NCBI GenBank assembly: GCA_025362575.1 | Contig: JANYIQ010000288.1 | Coordinates: forward strand, 1 to 33,813 | Direction: 5' to 3' | DNA from: Bacteroidia bacterium | Lineage (GTDB): Bacteria > Bacteroidota > Bacteroidia > B-17B0 > Aurantibacillaceae | Length of the DNA stretch: 33,813 nt | In this document: positions 142-33,813 of the stretch, piece by piece | Numbering within the stretch: position 1 is the stretch's first letter | Layout: each line of letters opens with the position of its first letter | Notes under the pieces: model-generated | The model's input: only the letters and a program-made list of their open reading frames with translations | What the model was told of the DNA's origin: nothing | Database searches by the model: none | Translations under genes and position numbers: made by a program

Positions 142-657
142 CTACTTTTTAAATTCCATTCTAAACTTCTTACTTAATGTGTTTTCAATTCTCAACTCGT
201 TTTTGGTTAACTTCATTATTCTCCAGTAACCACTATTTTCAATATAATCAAAAAAGAATGGGACATTATTTGGCGTCTCGAGATATAGTTCCTTGTTTTT
301 ATTATGAAGTTCAATATCTACATCTAATGAATTTAAAACTATGGTGCAAGAACATCCAGAGCTTATGAAATTTTTATTAATGCCTTCCAAAAGCCCGTGA
401 TACTTATTTTTGTTACTTGAACCGCTTATACTTAAAGTAATACTATTTGGGTCATTGTAATTTGAATTATAGATTTGTAACTGTTGAATTGTTGAATCGG
501 CACCGTTGACATAATATCTGTCAAATTTCCATATACCAGGCAAACACTTATGCGGATTAACTCTTTGGCCAAATCCGTTCTCAGAATACTTTTTACAGGT
601 CGTAAAAAACAAAACTGCAGTTAGGCAACAAGAAAATATTTTTATTTTATAGTTCAT
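142..657 (-). CDS. Small putative lipoprotein, lipocalin-like
   Basis: 171 aa. The N-terminus is a lipoprotein-type signal: basic n-region with K4 and K6, hydrophobic stretch 9-19, then LFFTTC with the likely lipidated Cys at 21, followed by KK as often in Bacteroidetes lipoproteins. The mature part has a GIWKFDRYYVNG stretch (about 41-52) and alternating beta-like strands, which resembles small lipocalin-like or META-like domains, but no family can be named firmly. A SGCSC cysteine pair lies near residue 102. It is the last gene of the minus-strand run, 48 bases after the halogenase-like gene, and has its own -7 box at 678-685, so it may be transcribed separately. The role is unknown; the likely location is the periplasmic face of a membrane. 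Confidence 0.7.
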   Translation of the reverse strand: MNYKIKIFSCCLTAVLFFTTCKKYSENGFGQRVNPHKCLPGIWKFDRYYVNGADSTIQQLQIYNSNYNDPNSITLSISGSSNKNKYHGLLEGINKNFISSGCSCTIVLNSLDVDIELHNKNKELYLETPNNVPFFFDYIENSGYWRIMKLTKNELRIENTLSKKFRMEFKK

Positions 658-24388: not shown

Positions 24389-25750
24389 CTAAACCTCAAA
24401 CTCCTGATAAAGTTCCGGCACAATGGCATCCCAACCATAGACTTCCTTTATTTTTGCTTTGAAGTCTTTGGCACTTTGTGTTTCACCATGAATGATAAAT
24501 ATTTTTTCGGGGGCTTGTTTTAATTTGCTCATCCAGTTTATTAATTCTCCCTGATCAGCATGAGCAGACAAACCCTCTACAAGCGTAACGCTTGCTTTTA
24601 CCGGCCATAACTTGCCACGTAATTTTATTTCGGTGGCTCCATCCAGCAAAGCTCTTCCTCGTGTACCTTCCCCTTGATAACCTACTAAAAGAATAGTGGC
24701 ATTTGCATCGCCCAAATAATGTTCAAAGTAAGTTAACACTCTGCCACCGGTAGCCATGCCACTTGCGGCAATAATTATTTTTGCAGATTTGCTGGCCGCC
24801 AGCTGTTCTGTTTCTTCAGGTTTTTTTAGGATTTTAATCTCCCGGCACATCTCCACACATTCTTCATCACTTAATTTGTGCCAAATTGGGTTTTTTTGAA
24901 ACACATCTAAAACATGATTTCCCATTGGACTATCCATGTAAACCGGAACAGGCGGAATTAAATTAGCTTTACGTAATTGCCATAAATAATACATGAGCAA
25001 CTGCGTTCTTTCAACAGCAAAGCTGGGCACAATAATGGTTCCGTGTTTTGCTGCTGCTTTGTTTACGGCTTCCATCAATAATTGTTTAGCATTTGTTGGA
25101 TGCGTTCTGTTTCCGTAGGTCGATTCTATGAATAAAATATCAGCGGCTTCGGGTTGTTCAGGTTTATTCATTAAAGCATCTTCTCGTCCCAGATCACCTG
25201 AAAAAACAAAAAGTTTATTCTGAATTTTTAGCTCAATAAAAACTGAACCAATAATATGTGCGTTATATCTTAAGCGAAAAAATATTTCAGGAAATAATTC
25301 TATCCATTGGTTAATTGCTTTAGGGTGAAATAAAGGAAAAACTGCTTCCGCATCTTTTGTATCGTACAAAGGTTTTGCCGGGGCGTGCTTGCTGTACTTG
25401 TATGCATTGGCACGTGCGGCATCTTCTTCCTGAATTTTTGCACTGTCCAATAAAATTAATTTTGCGATCTCAAGCGTGGGCTGACTCGCATAAATGGCCC
25501 CTTTAAAACCCTGCTTTACCAATAAGGGCAAATATCCTACGTGATCTAAATGTCCGTGGGTTAAAATAACACAATCAATGGCTGACGCATCTACCGGTAA
25601 TTTTTCCCAGTTACGTAATCGCAATTCTTTTAATCCCTGAAATAACCCGCAGTCGATCAATATTTTTTTATCTGCTGTTTCAATTAAATGCTTCGAACCG
25701 CTAACAGATCTTGCAGCACCTAGAAATTTTACTTTTATTTTATTAGTCAT
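24389..25750 (-). CDS. Metallo-beta-lactamase/beta-CASP RNA-processing-type nuclease
   Basis: 453 aa from the ATG at 25750; a GTG three codons further out is possible. Zinc motif THGHLDHVGYLP is the HxHxDH signature. STYGNRTHP is the following family block and SGDLGRED carries the bridging Asp. The beta-CASP domain follows with SFAVERTQLLMYYL, ASGMATGGRVLTYFEHYLG (split: ASGMATGGRVL, TYFEHYLG) and the C-terminal SAHADQGELINWM His ligand. These are RNase J/CPSF-73-type nuclease features; the stand-alone bacterial group here is of uncertain specificity (RNA endo- or exonuclease). The start overlaps the ATP-cone nuclease gene by eight bases, so both are probably translated from one mRNA. Confidence 0.9.
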   Translation of the reverse strand: MTNKIKVKFLGAARSVSGSKHLIETADKKILIDCGLFQGLKELRLRNWEKLPVDASAIDCVILTHGHLDHVGYLPLLVKQGFKGAIYASQPTLEIAKLILLDSAKIQEEDAARANAYKYSKHAPAKPLYDTKDAEAVFPLFHPKAINQWIELFPEIFFRLRYNAHIIGSVFIELKIQNKLFVFSGDLGREDALMNKPEQPEAADILFIESTYGNRTHPTNAKQLLMEAVNKAAAKHGTIIVPSFAVERTQLLMYYLWQLRKANLIPPVPVYMDSPMGNHVLDVFQKNPIWHKLSDEECVEMCREIKILKKPEETEQLAASKSAKIIIAASGMATGGRVLTYFEHYLGDANATILLVGYQGEGTRGRALLDGATEIKLRGKLWPVKASVTLVEGLSAHADQGELINWMSKLKQAPEKIFIIHGETQSAKDFKAKIKEVYGWDAIVPELYQEFEV

Positions 25751-26603
25751 TTGGTACACTTGTACTGAGTTTACATAATTGCTGAGCTTCCTTCATAACT
25801 GTACTAATACGCGCCAACTTAACCCCAACCGAATCCAATAATCTTTCGTTGTTCGAGATCTCATTACACAATACAATTTTTTTATCGAGCAGGCGCTGTT
25901 TTTCAACTTTTGTTAATGAAGTCAGGCAAGTGATCGGATATAAACCGAGTGTATCGATCTGATCTTTTAAACTTCCCTTTATGGGATAATCCCATCCAAC
26001 AAGATTTAAACCTACACAAGTTCCATACTGAATGGCATCGCCCGAAAAGCGCGTGTTTGTTACCACCCAGCCCTGATGTGTTTTTGAGATGTGATCAGGA
26101 AGTTTTAGCCAGGCTGATTCCACATCCTTGAATCGAGCCTGAATATATAAGGGGATCTTTACGTCGCAAAAAATTCCGCGCTGATTATGGTATTTACATT
26201 CAATCATGAAAACGTGATTGTTCTTTTTGGCAATCACATCGACCTCATGATTAACGCAACTTCCCTGAACAAACTCTCCCACCTGTGTTTGATAGCCCTG
26301 ACGATTCAATATTTCAGCTATGTATTTTTCAAACGGATAACCGGAAGGCCCTAACTCCATGATGGCCTGCTTCAAATGATAGCGCGCCGCCATGTGCCGT
26401 GAACCTTCCCGTAAAAGCTTAAAGGCCAACTGATATATCTTCTTGGTGGTGATCCCTTCATAGAGTTTCGAAGATATCTGCTCAATGATGGAATCAACCT
26501 GTTCTTTTGAAGCGCCTGCCCGCTGAAGGGAGGTTCTGATCTTATTTTCAGAGTATTTGCTTTTTTCGCCGGATGCCTTTGTTATAAAAATATCATTACC
26601 CAT
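25743..26603 (-). CDS. ATP-cone domain fused to PD-(D/E)XK restriction-endonuclease-like domain
   Basis: 286 aa from the ATG at 26603, which has AAGGAG seven bases upstream. A TTG two codons out is less likely. Residues 4-84 form an ATP-cone (DIFITKASGEKSKYSENKIR, then SLQRAGASKEQVDSI and KKIYQLAFKLLRE), the nucleotide-sensing module known from ribonucleotide reductases and NrdR. Residues about 88-200 form an Mrr-like nuclease: FEKYIAEIL, then HEVDVIAKKNN with D122, and MIECKYHNQRG with E135-C-K137. The combination suggests a nuclease gated by ATP/dATP levels. The substrate is unknown. The neighbours (beta-CASP nuclease, universal stress proteins) suggest a stress role rather than classical restriction; there is no methylase nearby. 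Confidence 0.85.
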   Translation of the reverse strand: MGNDIFITKASGEKSKYSENKIRTSLQRAGASKEQVDSIIEQISSKLYEGITTKKIYQLAFKLLREGSRHMAARYHLKQAIMELGPSGYPFEKYIAEILNRQGYQTQVGEFVQGSCVNHEVDVIAKKNNHVFMIECKYHNQRGIFCDVKIPLYIQARFKDVESAWLKLPDHISKTHQGWVVTNTRFSGDAIQYGTCVGLNLVGWDYPIKGSLKDQIDTLGLYPITCLTSLTKVEKQRLLDKKIVLCNEISNNERLLDSVGVKLARISTVMKEAQQLCKLSTSVPND

Positions 26604-26610
26604 GTTCAAA

Positions 26611-29405: not shown

Positions 29406-30647
29406 TTAGGCCGCCTGCAACTGAGTCAGTCTAGCGTTCTTTAGCTTATCCAGCGCGTAATCCAAAGTAATGGTAAGATTTTTTGGGGCTTTTTCGTCGC
29501 TCGGAATATCAAACATGAGGTCAACCATAATGGCTTCGCAAATGCCGCGCAAACCACGGGCGCCTAATTTAAATTCAATGGCTTTATCTACGATAAGATC
29601 CAGTACTTCATTCTCAAATTCAAGCTTAACGCCTTCCATCTTGAACAAATGTTTGTACTGTTTCATTAAAGCATTTTTTGGTTCGGTTAAAATTAAACGA
29701 AGGGTTGCTCTGTCTAATGGTTTTAAATACGTAAGCACCGGTAAACGGCCGATCAATTCCGGAATCAATCCGAAAGCTTTCAGATCCTGAGGAGAAACGT
29801 ACTGCAATAAATTGGCTTTATCAATTTCTTCAACAGAAACCGATGCTGAGTAACCAACCGCTTGAGTATTTAAACGTGAAGCAATTTTCTTCTCAATGCC
29901 ATCAAAAGCACCTCCGCAAACAAATAAAATATTCTTGGTATTTACTGAGATCATTTTTGCATCCGGATGTTTTCTTCCGCCTTGAGGTGGAACGTTAACT
30001 GCTGAACCTTCGAGTAATTTCAATAAAGCCTGCTGAACACCTTCGCCACTCACATCACGGGTAATGGAAGGGTTGTCACTTTTACGTGCGATCTTATCGA
30101 TCTCATCTATAAATACAATGCCGCGTTCTGCAGCAACCACATCGTAATCAGCAGCCTGTAACAAACGGGTTAAAATGCTTTCCACGTCTTCTCCAACATA
30201 ACCAGCTTCTGTTAAAACTGTAGCATCGGCAATGCAAAAAGGCACATTCAATAATTTAGCTATGGAACGAGCCAATAAAGTTTTTCCGGTTCCGGTTTCT
30301 CCAACTAAAATTACATTCGATTTTTCAATTTCAATTTCTTCTTTATCTAAACCGGCATGCGCCACGCGTTTAAAATGATTATAAACCGCAACGCTCAACA
30401 CTTTTTTAGCATCGTCCTGCCCGATCACATATTCATCCAAATATTTTTTAATGGCATTTGGCTTTAATAAATTTAAGGCCTGTTGAACTTTTTGTTTATT
30501 CTCGGCATTACCTTCTTCGCTTATCATTTTATAAGCCTGAGAAATGCAGGTATCGCAAATGTGACCGCTGATCCCGGCAATAAGAATTTTTACATCTTTT
30601 TTATCGCGATTACAAAATGAGCAGGTTATTGGTCCGGGTTTAGCCAT
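29406..30647 (-). CDS. clpX: ATP-dependent Clp protease ATP-binding subunit ClpX
   Basis: 413 aa. N-terminal zinc finger with C9, C12, C31 and C34 (CSFC...CDTC). Walker A is GETGTGKT (116-123), and Walker B is [12 protein letters not shown]. The pore/sensor blocks [15 protein letters not shown] and [15 protein letters not shown] are typical, and [13 protein letters not shown] is the sensor-2 region. It unfolds tagged proteins and feeds ClpP. clpP is not adjacent. The ATG at 30647 starts [13 protein letters not shown] -7 box sits four bases before it. The gene has 286 bases of noncoding sequence behind it. Confidence 0.97.
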
Positions 30648-30713: not shown

Positions 30714-31121
30714 TCACTTCTTATAAAAGCTCTCCGGCTCTATAGGCTTAAGTTCCAGGCCATTTTCGATCGTTTTCATCTTGTAGTATAAATGCATTAA
30801 ACCATGGTCGGAAATGTGGATCAGGTCTTTTTTTACCTGATACGTAAATGAAGAATCGCATGCATTTTCGTTAGTGAATTCGTTGGTTTCGTTCTCATAA
30901 AAACACCGTTTAACTTTTCCGTCGGCGTAAAAAATGGTTCTTTCCTTTACAGGAACTTTATCCTTTATCTTTTTAAAGACCATTATTTTGCTTTCGGTTT
31001 TTTTGCTCAATGAATTGTCTTGATACCATTTTGCAGATTGAAGTTCCTTTGCATAGTCTTTTTGTGCCTCAATCTTGAAACAAAAAATCATTACAATTAC
31101 GAGTATGAAATAAAAACGCAT
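30714..31121 (-). CDS. Two-cysteine secreted protein, tandem family member A
   Basis: 135 aa from the ATG at 31121. The open frame extends 15 codons upstream into the previous gene, but MRFYFILVIVMIFCFKIEAQ is a complete signal peptide, so the internal ATG is chosen. The mature part shares the family pattern: AKWYQDN near the start, a KRC cysteine, ACDSS with the second cysteine, YQVKKDLIHIS, LYYK and a final ESFYKK. The two cysteines probably form a disulfide. The fold looks lipocalin-like; no function is known. Last gene of the array. The next gene downstream is clpX, with a 66-base gap. Confidence 0.75.
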   Translation of the reverse strand: MRFYFILVIVMIFCFKIEAQKDYAKELQSAKWYQDNSLSKKTESKIMVFKKIKDKVPVKERTIFYADGKVKRCFYENETNEFTNENACDSSFTYQVKKDLIHISDHGLMHLYYKMKTIENGLELKPIEPESFYKK

Positions 31122-31122
31122 T

Positions 31123-31569
31123 CTATTTTTTATAAAAGGTTTCAGGATCTGTAACCAAAAATTCAAGATTACCAGTTCTTACAATTTCAAAACGAAAATA
31201 ATAATGATAGGTTCCATCTTGGGTAATATGGATCATGTCTTTTTTAATTTGATATTTTGTCGATGTAGAATCGCAGTTCAAACCTGGTTCTATAAAATAT
31301 TGTTCGCCATTTGGTTTAAAAGCGGGCCGTTTTTCGCTAATCATTTCGCAGAAGGAAACTTTTCCGCTTGGCATAAATCTCACTTCCGCCTTACCATCGG
31401 TTGGCAATGCTTTTTTTAGAAACACTACCCTATCCGAATAAAACCTTGAGCTACCGTACCACTTTTTTGGCAAAATATCATTTTGTGTGAAAACCTTAAC
31501 GGGATCGTCTTGTGCCTGCAATGCAAAAGAGAACAGAAAAAAGAAAATAGTTATATAAAATGTTTTCAT
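31123..31569 (-). CDS. Two-cysteine secreted protein, tandem family member B
   Basis: 148 aa from the ATG at 31569; 19 upstream codons in the frame are excluded because MKTFYITIFFFLFSFALQAQ is a good signal peptide. Family marks: KKWYGSS, SFC (first Cys), LNCDSTS (second Cys), YQIKKDMIHIT, YYFRF and the end PETFYKK. It is the closest to member A in the second half. One base separates it from member A, and 13 bases from member C. Confidence 0.78.
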   Translation of the reverse strand: MKTFYITIFFFLFSFALQAQDDPVKVFTQNDILPKKWYGSSRFYSDRVVFLKKALPTDGKAEVRFMPSGKVSFCEMISEKRPAFKPNGEQYFIEPGLNCDSTSTKYQIKKDMIHITQDGTYHYYFRFEIVRTGNLEFLVTDPETFYKK

Positions 31570-31582
31570 GTGGATACCGAAA

Positions 31583-31996
31583 TTATTTTCCGTAAAAATC
31601 TTCTGCCTTAGCCTGAACAAACTCAAAACCTTTGTCGGGCGTTGCTTTTGGTTTAAAATAATAATGATTCATTCCGCCTGTAATATGAATGATACCGTTA
31701 CTGATCTGATACTTTCCTGTGGAGTCACATTCTATTAATGTAAGCTTTCGTTCTTTTCCTTCTTTATCAAAAAGCGATCCGCGAATGGAATCACAGCGCT
31801 TCATTTTTCCGTTCTGCAAAAAATTTGCTTCCCATGTTTCGGGTTTGTTAATGGGATTCGGCGAAAAGAACATTGATTTACCAAGAAAACCTCCGCTTAC
31901 ATACCATTTATTAGCCAGTAATTGTTTTTGCAGATCTTTCTGAGAGAAAAAATGATTCGACAGGAATAAAAAAGACAAAATATAAAAAAACTTCAA
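31583..31996 (-). CDS. Two-cysteine secreted protein, tandem family member C
   Basis: 137 aa with a TTG start at 31996 (MKFFYILSFLFLSNHFFSQ). A GTG two codons earlier (32002) directly follows an in-frame TAA and is the alternative; there is no ATG. The TTG is preferred because all paralogues start M-basic-x. Family marks: NKWYVSG, a TWEANFLQNGKMKRCDS block with the first Cys, IECDS with the second Cys, YQISNGIIHIT, HYYFK and EDFYGK. It shows the W-E-A-x-F motif shared with D and E. Confidence 0.7.
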   Translation of the reverse strand: MKFFYILSFLFLSNHFFSQKDLQKQLLANKWYVSGGFLGKSMFFSPNPINKPETWEANFLQNGKMKRCDSIRGSLFDKEGKERKLTLIECDSTGKYQISNGIIHITGGMNHYYFKPKATPDKGFEFVQAKAEDFYGK

Positions 31997-32006
31997 TTGC
32001 ACTTAA

Positions 32007-32468
32007 TTATCTGTAAAACTGTTGAGGGTCTAAGATGGCAAGTTCAAGTTTCTCCATTTTTTCTTTAGGATCAAGCGGAAGGCGAATGATATTATAAAAA
32101 TACGACGTTCCTTCTTTATTGATACGCAATTTATTTCCTCTGATCACATAAGAAGCAGAAGAATCGCATTGATAACGCTGGTATTTTGTAAGGCTGTCTA
32201 CTTCAGCTCCGGCAGCAATATCCTGCTCAAGAGAATCGCAACGCATGAACTTGCCTTTATCACTTCCTAAAAACATAGCTTCCCAATGGGCTGCTTTGCC
32301 AACCGGTTTTGAAGTAAAGATCACCGATTCTTTTTTATTGAAGTCGGTTGTGGCATACCATTTGTGAGTTAATAGTTTTGCTCCGAGGTCTTCTGCAGGT
32401 GCGCGTTGCGAAAATGTATTATAAGCAGTCGCAGCTACCAGAAATAGAACACAAGTTATTTTTTTCAT
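32007..32468 (-). CDS. Two-cysteine secreted protein, tandem family member D
   Basis: 153 aa, ATG start, signal peptide MKKITCVLFLVAATAYNTFS then Q. Family marks: HKWYATT, HWEAMFLG, KFMRCDS (first Cys), YQCDSSA (second Cys), YVIRGNKLRIN, YFYN and the end PQQFYR. Between the two cysteines it carries a longer loop (LEQDIAAGAEVDSLTKYQRY, 20 residues) than its relatives. It lies 12 bases from member E and ten from member C. Confidence 0.78.
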   Translation of the reverse strand: MKKITCVLFLVAATAYNTFSQRAPAEDLGAKLLTHKWYATTDFNKKESVIFTSKPVGKAAHWEAMFLGSDKGKFMRCDSLEQDIAAGAEVDSLTKYQRYQCDSSASYVIRGNKLRINKEGTSYFYNIIRLPLDPKEKMEKLELAILDPQQFYR

Positions 32469-32480
32469 AAAGGTTATCGA

Positions 32481-32894
32481 TTATTTAAAGTCAGCTACTG
32501 TTGTTGGTGTTAATTCGTACCCTGAATTATTCGGTAAAGCTTTCATTTTGTAATAATAGCTTGCCGGCGGGTAATTAATATTGATCACATCGTTCTTTAC
32601 TTTATAAGTATATAACGAATCGCAATAGTATGTGTTAGGTTTAATTTCAATTCCTGAAGGGTCGATCACGGAAGTTTTTGTTGTTAGGCAATGGTGCATG
32701 CTTCCTGTTGAAGAAAATTTTGCTTCCCAATCCGGACCATCTGCAGCAACAGATGTTAAAGTTAAAGCCGTACCATTTACAGCACCTTTAACGAACCATT
32801 TACCGCTTTGAATACTTTTTGCTGCATTTTTCTGTGAAAAAGAAGCAAAACCTAATCCTAATGCCAGTGCTAATGTGAAATAAACTTTTTTCAT
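32481..32894 (-). CDS. Two-cysteine secreted protein, tandem family member E
   Basis: 137 aa from the ATG at 32894; 12 upstream codons in frame are excluded because MKKVYFTLALALGLGFASFS then Q is a standard signal peptide. Family marks: GKWFVKG, DWEAKFSSTG, MHHC (first Cys), YYCDSLY (second Cys), YKVKNDVININ, YYYKMK and a truncated end VADFK. First gene of the array and the most divergent. The gap to lpdA is 44 bases of AT-rich sequence with no clear -7 box. Confidence 0.75.
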   Translation of the reverse strand: MKKVYFTLALALGLGFASFSQKNAAKSIQSGKWFVKGAVNGTALTLTSVAADGPDWEAKFSSTGSMHHCLTTKTSVIDPSGIEIKPNTYYCDSLYTYKVKNDVININYPPASYYYKMKALPNNSGYELTPTTVADFK

Positions 32895-32938: not shown

Positions 32939-33813
32939 TTAAATATGCAAGGCTCTCTTGGAAGTGGCGTCAAGACAGGCTTCCTTAAGGCTCTCGGTAA
33001 AGGTTGGATGGGCATGACAGATCCGTGCTATATCCTCAGAACTTGCCCTGTATTCCATGGCCACAACGGCTTCGGCTATCATATCAGCAGCTCTTGGACC
33101 GATCATATGAACGCCTAAGATCTCATCTGTAACCTCATCGCTGATCACTTTCACAAAGCCATCCGTATCCATGCTGGCGCGGGCACGGCCACTTGCCTTA
33201 AATGGAAAAGATCCTACTTTATATTTAACGCCGCGTTCTTTTAATTGTTCTTCAGTTTCTCCAACCGCTGCTACTTCGGGCCAGGTATAAACAACACCCG
33301 GAACCAAATTATAATTGATGTGCGGTTTTTGTCCTGCCATTAATTCAGCAACATAAACGCCTTCTTCTTCTGCTTTATGAGCCAGCATGGCACCCTTCAC
33401 CACATCACCGATCGCATAGATATTATCAACGTTCGTTTTCAAATGATGGTCTACTTCCACTCTGCCTCTGTTATCCATCTTAACTCCGGCTTTATCCAGA
33501 CCTAAATTATCGGTATACGGTTTGCGGCCAACGGCAACAAGAACATAATCTCCTTTTAATTCAATAGTTGCGCCTTTATCACTATCTGCGGTAACGGTCG
33601 CCTCCTTACCCTTTGAAGAAACACCTGTAACTTTATGTTTCATGTAAAATTCAAAACCTAAGGTTTTCTTTAACACGCGTTGTAACTCTTTTCCAAGCGC
33701 AGCATCCATTCCGGGGATCAGGCGATCCATGAATTCTACCACACTTACTTTTGCACCAAGGCGCGCGTAAACACTTCCTAATTCAAGACCAATAACTCCA
33801 ACGATTACTACGA
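32939..33813 (-). CDS. lpdA: Dihydrolipoyl dehydrogenase (partial, 5' end outside the window)
   Basis: The 3' 290 codons; the frame stays open to the window edge. The NAD-binding region IGLELGSVYARLGAKVSVVEFMDRL (split: IGLELGSVYARLG, AKVSVVEFMDRL) is followed by VGRKPYT, then the second FAD motif NIYAIGDVV, and the dimerisation domain VPGVVYTWPEVAAVG. The catalytic His-Glu pair is in CHAHPTFTESLKEA. The redox CxxxxC motif lies beyond the edge and cannot be checked. It is the E3 component of 2-oxo acid dehydrogenase complexes and of glycine cleavage. The first bases, reading VVIVGVIG, lack the usual first glycine of GxGxxG (see findings). Confidence 0.92.
   Translation of the reverse strand, partial: VVIVGVIGLELGSVYARLGAKVSVVEFMDRLIPGMDAALGKELQRVLKKTLGFEFYMKHKVTGVSSKGKEATVTADSDKGATIELKGDYVLVAVGRKPYTDNLGLDKAGVKMDNRGRVEVDHHLKTNVDNIYAIGDVVKGAMLAHKAEEEGVYVAELMAGQKPHINYNLVPGVVYTWPEVAAVGETEEQLKERGVKYKVGSFPFKASGRARASMDTDGFVKVISDEVTDEILGVHMIGPRAADMIAEAVVAMEYRASSEDIARICHAHPTFTESLKEACLDATSKRALHI

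Follow-up and report, generated by a model that had tools for sequence, protein, structure and literature searches.

Tandem-duplicated, predicted lipocalin-like exported proteins of Aurantibacillaceae carry a two-cysteine loop common to GldN and other envelope proteins

Introduction

Near one end of a 33,813-nucleotide contig of a Bacteroidia bacterium (order B-17B0, family Aurantibacillaceae; GenBank assembly GCA_025362575.1, contig JANYIQ010000288.1, the whole of which is called the window here), five small genes for secreted proteins stand in a row on the minus strand, each with a single pair of cysteines. The locus raises the question of what these proteins are, how they came to be arrayed, and what a conserved cysteine pair might do in them. 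An initial annotation, made from the sequence alone, had described the five genes as tandem paralogues of a family that it did not recognise.

Results

Five exported paralogues between lpd and clpX

The array consists of five intact frames arranged head to tail, with intergenic gaps of 1-13 bp, and its genes, cysteine loops and flanks are as follows (all on the minus strand):

32939..33811, minus: dihydrolipoyl dehydrogenase (lpd), upstream flank, partial, cut by the contig end (NCBIfam TIGR01350, E 3e-102)
32481..32894, minus: copy A (lpd-proximal, 137 aa), predicted lipocalin-like secreted protein (ORF; AlphaFold model 2)
32622..32690, minus: Cys69-Cys91 loop of copy A (AlphaFold model and loop profile)
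32007..32468, minus: copy B1 (153 aa), paralogue (ORF, locus comparison, tree)
32166..32240, minus: Cys77-Cys101 loop of copy B1 (loop profile)
31583..32002, minus: copy B2 (139 aa, GTG start), paralogue with the most GldN-like cysteine loop (ORF, loop profiles)
31727..31795, minus: Cys70-Cys92 loop of copy B2, a GldN-type match, KRCDSI..FDxxGxE..CDST (loop profiles)
31123..31569, minus: copy B3 (148 aa), paralogue with a longer loop (ORF, alignment)
31273..31350, minus: Cys74-Cys99 loop of copy B3 (loop profile)
30714..31121, minus: copy B4 (135 aa), paralogue with a shortened loop (ORF, alignment; AlphaFold model 1)
30858..30905, minus: Cys73-Cys88 loop of copy B4, shortened, the weakest match to the shared loop (loop profiles)
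29406..30647, minus: clpX, downstream flank (NCBIfam NF003745, above cut-off)

Open reading frames and alignment agree with the earlier description of five consecutive genes of 135-153 aa with signal peptides. All ten pairs of copies match one another by BLASTP (23-33% identity; E 8e-20 to 0.03, calculated for a database of proteome size, 1.3 million residues), and the five-copy alignment holds 15 invariant columns, both cysteines among them, including Q20, K31, W32, F64, G68, C73, C88-D89-S90, Y94, I103, Y112, E123 and F132 (first-sequence numbering). Two motifs named in the initial annotation stood in part: in KWY/KWF the K and W are invariant but the third position is not, and of the (D/E/Q)xF(Y) ending all copies have (D/E/Q)xF, while the trailing Y is found in four of the five. 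A scan of the array for sigma-70-type promoters gave no signal (9 found vs 10.8 expected).

The family was likewise not recognised by curated models: scans of the array proteins against Pfam, NCBIfam and PHROGs returned no match over cut-off, the best being Lipocalin_4 (PF13648) at a below-cut-off E of 0.066 for one of 21 family members, and a PDB sequence search gave chance-level matches only, with no potempins among them. A profile search built from the five sequences did find relatives, and a search of public genome contigs gave four, all MAGs labelled Bacteroidia, Bacteroidetes or Sphingobacteriaceae. A candidate link of the array to phages was dropped, since no relative was found in viral contigs.

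All five copies begin with a hydrophobic signal peptide and have a Q at the mature start in an aligned column. They thereby conform to the Q-rule of Bacteroidota, in which a Q directly follows the signal peptidase I cleavage site (PMC5837995), the cleavage site here being predicted. A lipobox cysteine is absent from all five signal peptides, no model of the T9SS C-terminal secretion domain (about 70-100 residues) in Pfam or NCBIfam matches any of the five copies, and a single predicted barrel fills the mature protein (~115-132 aa) up to its C-terminus. With neither a lipid anchor nor room for such a domain, the array products are most likely soluble periplasmic proteins. In a sister genus (g3), four relatives without the cysteine pair bear a lipobox (L016, L017, L018, L020), so the family exists in a lipid-anchored form too.

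A predicted lipocalin-like barrel

Two AlphaFold models, one of copy B4 (model 1, from five sequences; pLDDT 76, pTM 0.66) and one of copy A (model 2, from 13 sequences; pLDDT 81, pTM 0.68), both show about eight strands preceded by a short helix, and in model 2 the eight strands are predicted to form an up-and-down type of barrel. When compared with solved structures, model 1 matched best to potempin E of Tannerella forsythia (8ehc, 8ehd; Z 8.3 over 83 residues at 3.1 Å), with a Bacteroides lipocalin-like protein at Z 7.8; model 2 scored Z 7.7 with a Bacteroides lipocalin-like protein and Z 7.4 with potempin E, which was among its top five matches. The Bacteroides structures (4iab, 4i95, 4gzv, 4qrl) spanned Z 5.8-7.8 with no significant sequence match to the array, and identity to potempin E over the fold alignment was 14-24%. 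Z values of 7-8 are moderate and fall within the range of a common arrangement; the case for the fold comes from the agreement of two models from different first sequences and from the lipocalin-like nature of most of the high-ranking solved structures. The lipocalin-like barrel at which the initial annotation had guessed is thus what both models predict. In addition, W33 is invariant in 21 of 21 family members and a G stands two residues before it in some rows only, so that several copies read G-K-W; a G-x-W at the first strand is typical of lipocalins.

Like the Bacteroides lipocalin-like proteins and Lipocalin_4, the array proteins appear to be exported proteins of Bacteroidota, small in size and built as a lipocalin-like barrel. 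Lipocalin-like exported proteins being already known, we regard the array, on its predicted fold alone, as a lipocalin-like exported family that has so far lacked an annotation.

Tandem duplication at a fixed locus

Among the eight genomes sampled from the genus, the window's included, an lpd-[n copies]-clpX locus is present in five others, with one copy in G054, two in G052, G053 and G058, and three in G056; the flanks are lpd and clpX in all six genomes with an array, and the five copies of the window form the longest array found. Copy numbers of 1, 2, 2, 2 and 3 at one and the same site in relatives establish, as far as gene order and sequence can, that the array grew by tandem duplication at a fixed lpd/clpX locus, as had been proposed. 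Copy A, which is 39-62% identical to the lpd-proximal copies of the five other genomes, is a conserved orthologue present in every genus genome with an array, and copy B1 has an orthologue in one of them (G056_b, 46% identity). In a tree of 21 members, whose deepest supports are good and several of whose inner forks are weak, the lpd-proximal copy, one per genome, stands apart from a faster group made up of the window's other four copies and the clpX-side copies of relatives. By this tree, the split between the conserved lpd-proximal copy and the fast clade, which marks the oldest duplication, is older than the species. The window's genome also has a dispersed paralogue without cysteines, on a different contig (G000:C133:14242-14664).

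The strong divergence of the copies had initially been read as that of ligand- or partner-diversifying proteins, a reading that found no support: between two close genomes, the only such pair, the lpd-proximal copy differs by 0 amino-acid vs 9 silent changes and the second copy by 3 vs 8. In this one pair, with its few changes, both copies appear constrained, the second less so, with no sign of positive selection, a pattern compatible with selection at single sites.

A cysteine pair that probably staples a hairpin

Each mature part holds exactly two cysteines in all five copies, the second within CDS, in line with the earlier reading, and the stretch between them varies in length (14, 21, 21, 23 and 24 residues). 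The two cysteines align at equivalent positions in the five copies and in nine cysteine-bearing relatives: in the 21-member alignment, 14 rows have both, seven have neither and none has a single one, L019 having one that is two residues off. The cysteine-free rows fall in two places of the tree, and several of these relatives still retain the loop, which suggests that the staple is dispensable. In the model of copy A, two successive strands (65-72 and 87-100) carry one cysteine each, and D78-x-x-G81 falls between the cysteines. From their joint presence or absence in relatives and from the models, we infer that the two cysteines form one intramolecular, cross-strand disulfide that closes a hairpin.

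A loop common to the array, GldN and small lipoproteins

The five-row array profile, used alone, also matched GldN (PorN; PF19841), a T9SS periplasmic ring or track protein, in seven further family genomes, at per-genome E values from 7e-5 to 9e-4, and the GldN of the window's own genome at E 1.8e-3. The stretch matched was the cysteine loop. One matched GldN scores E 1.6e-60 with PF19841, and the PF19841-matching GldN stands directly after genes that read by sequence as gldL and gldM. Within the order, a 33-residue loop is common to the two, of the form CDS-x19-CDS with a D-x-x-G-x-E turn, and in both GldN and the closest array copies the cysteines are separated by 21 residues. For copies B3 and B4 the match to the GldN loop is poor. 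The array proteins are otherwise unlike GldN: none of the five copies matches PF19841, and they are not in the gldKLMN operon.

A loop profile run within the genus found further carriers, namely GldN-like lipoproteins of ~200 aa and lipoproteins of 64 and 87 aa. With profiles that left out the family being searched, so that circularity was avoided, an HMM of array-family loops matched 11 of 11 GldN (E 2e-10 to 3e-5, the best value for a search space of 40,000), six of six GldN-like lipoproteins and both mini-lipoproteins; its real matches scored 22-42 bits, vs at most 13 bits for shuffles in which the cysteines were held in place. The reverse profile matched copy B2 and two relatives at E 3e-7 to 2e-8 and other family members at E 3e-3 to 0.3, leaving copy B4 unmatched. 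In a profile-profile comparison, the array family and GldN aligned over 39 columns only (probability 96%, E 2.4e-9). Homology of the array and GldN over their whole length was rejected, the alignment being confined to the loop. Nor was there support for a loop recently copied out of the GldN in the same genome: own-genome loops were no closer than those of other genomes.

The loop occurs in 36 of 87 genomes and in nine of the ten genera of the family, to which all genomes returned for the order belong. Outside the family, neither a class sample nor the 391 other genomes sampled from the phylum gave a match at E<=1e-4. In the order's GldN, both cysteines are present in 32, neither in 12 and an odd arrangement in one, vs neither in 20 of 20 GldN from elsewhere in the class. 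Three genomes (G014, G024, G031) combine cysteine-free members of the array family with a cysteine-bearing GldN, so the two do not strictly co-vary. Judged by sequence, the two-cysteine loop is not private to the array family but common to GldN and other envelope proteins of the order. We found no description of such a loop in the open-access literature, which is weak evidence of absence; the closest paper, PMC12635249, concerns GldK, SprF and PorG and not the loop of the array and GldN.

The mini-lipoproteins of 64-87 aa (G053:C4:59593-59685, L143 and L176; G052:C58:25930-26022, L175; G009:C40:29494-29580, L178) are made up almost entirely of a signal with a lipobox, a linker and the CDS...CDS loop, and have no Pfam match. 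The ~200-aa GldN-like lipoproteins (L192, G054:C69; L193, G058:C27; L128, G055:C364; L138, G052:C63) comprise the loop and the GldN-type region that follows it, lie outside the gld operon, form tandem pairs in three genomes and are not recognised by Pfam. One GldN (L202, G020:C2:75946-76719) has four cysteines in another arrangement at the loop position (CPPE...CGIC...CPD).

Possible roles of the array proteins

We propose that the five array genes encode proteins that are probably exported, soluble in the periplasm and folded as a lipocalin-like barrel of eight strands, and that these almost certainly arose by repeated tandem duplication at the lpd-clpX locus. Their cysteines, on neighbouring strands, would in all likelihood form one intramolecular disulfide stapling a protruding beta-hairpin, and the resemblance of this module to that in GldN, the GldN-like lipoproteins and the mini-lipoproteins of the order is very likely real and not due to chance. 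More doubtfully, though as the likeliest mechanism, the hairpin might dock one common envelope partner, e.g., GldM, another T9SS track component or an outer-membrane protein, with the barrel as a variable payload that holds a ligand or a second protein near the docking site. Docking is favoured because some of the lipoproteins are hardly more than a lipid-anchored loop, an arrangement that is hard to explain if the loop serves only to stabilise its host fold. A common partner is also plausible at the periplasmic layer of the T9SS ring, which is formed by PorN/GldN and at which the PorM motor arm has been modelled as touching PorN/GldN (PMC12635249). Counting against docking, the array adjoins housekeeping genes and not T9SS genes. 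Barrel, fixed-locus duplication, stapled hairpin and docking loop together make an account that we consider plausible though somewhat short of probable. Its broadest form, in which the order spread a stapled hairpin over unrelated envelope proteins as a docking tag for one partner and the array proteins act as adaptors associated with the T9SS or the track, their barrels being interchangeable, we think possible but rather unlikely.

Beta-hairpins with D-x-x-G turns are common, and the likeness of the loops could be convergent. The array proteins may then be ordinary lipocalin-like binding proteins of the periplasm or envelope, for a small hydrophobic ligand or a protein, with the cysteine pair as a structural staple and the GldN likeness as convergence in one lineage. 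This we take seriously without thinking it probable: it fits two lipocalin-like models, cysteine-free relatives that keep the loop, and a cysteine-free GldN region outside the order that is also a loop before a YxxKEDWFFD strand, but the likeness exceeds the cysteines (cysteine-fixed shuffles stay far below the real matches), tiny lipoproteins without a barrel carry the loop, and it is absent elsewhere in the class and phylum samples. Since potempins are protease inhibitors, the fold comparison brings up a further role, in which the barrel blocks a protease and the copies diversify against different ones. Among solved structures potempin E (8ehc) ranks first or ties for first, and small barrel-type inhibitors are known, the staphostatins being described as 'lipocalin-like' (PMC2873492); yet potempin E and the Bacteroides lipocalin-like proteins tie in Z, the potempins were missed by the sequence search of the PDB, and no secreted protease lies beside the array or its orthologues, whose flanks are lpd and clpX, making inhibition of this kind improbable.

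Very improbable, in our assessment, is a reactive role for the hairpin disulfide, in which exchange with some free thiol, for instance that of the GldK track cysteine, would anchor the protein covalently on the T9SS/gliding track as it moves. In Bacteroidota, both transport and gliding require GldK-SprF and GldK-PorG disulfides (PMC12635249), these T9SS-associated proteins resemble the array in having paired cysteines in their periplasmic parts, and the track component GldN has the same two-cysteine loop in the order. However, SprF and PorG use strained Cys-x-Cys in C-terminal tails for intermolecular bonds, whereas the array cysteines are 15-25 residues apart across a hairpin, favouring a stable intramolecular staple; moreover, the reactive GldK cysteine faces the outer membrane, and PorN/GldN forms a separate ring layer away from it. 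That the copies are neutral or redundant, with no distinct roles, would suit a copy number that ranges from 1 to 5 between species and clpX-side copies that evolve fast, but five intact frames, conserved cysteines and core residues, and fewer amino-acid than silent changes in both copies of the close genome pair leave it extremely unlikely.

To our knowledge, short modules common to unrelated folds have rarely been described in bacterial envelopes. Should the loop be a docking tag, it would name a set of unannotated T9SS accessory proteins in one order and provide a sequence handle for finding the loop's partner; it also bears on recent work on how cysteine chemistry connects proteins of the outer membrane with the T9SS/gliding track. 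Should the loop be only convergent, the array would remain a clear case of an unannotated lipocalin-like family whose tandem expansion is well placed.

Additional observations

Three proteins of ~330 aa (L021, G003:C1; L022, G042:C3; L026, G004:C1) have an N-terminal domain that matches the array family and a long C-terminal part without a Pfam match, and are possibly a fused form of the barrel. Elsewhere in the window, positions 142-657 (minus strand) encode a 171-aa lipoprotein (TCKKYSEN..., then W-K-F-D) with no Pfam match, which may belong to another lipocalin-like family and resembles small lipoproteins in other genus genomes (L040; beside GldN-like genes in L192 and L193). At 24389-26609 (minus strand), overlapping genes encode a beta-CASP/RMMBL metallo-hydrolase and a protein with ATP-cone and Mrr_cat domains, the latter of restriction-endonuclease type, a stretch that is absent between the M20 peptidase gene and clpX in several relatives.
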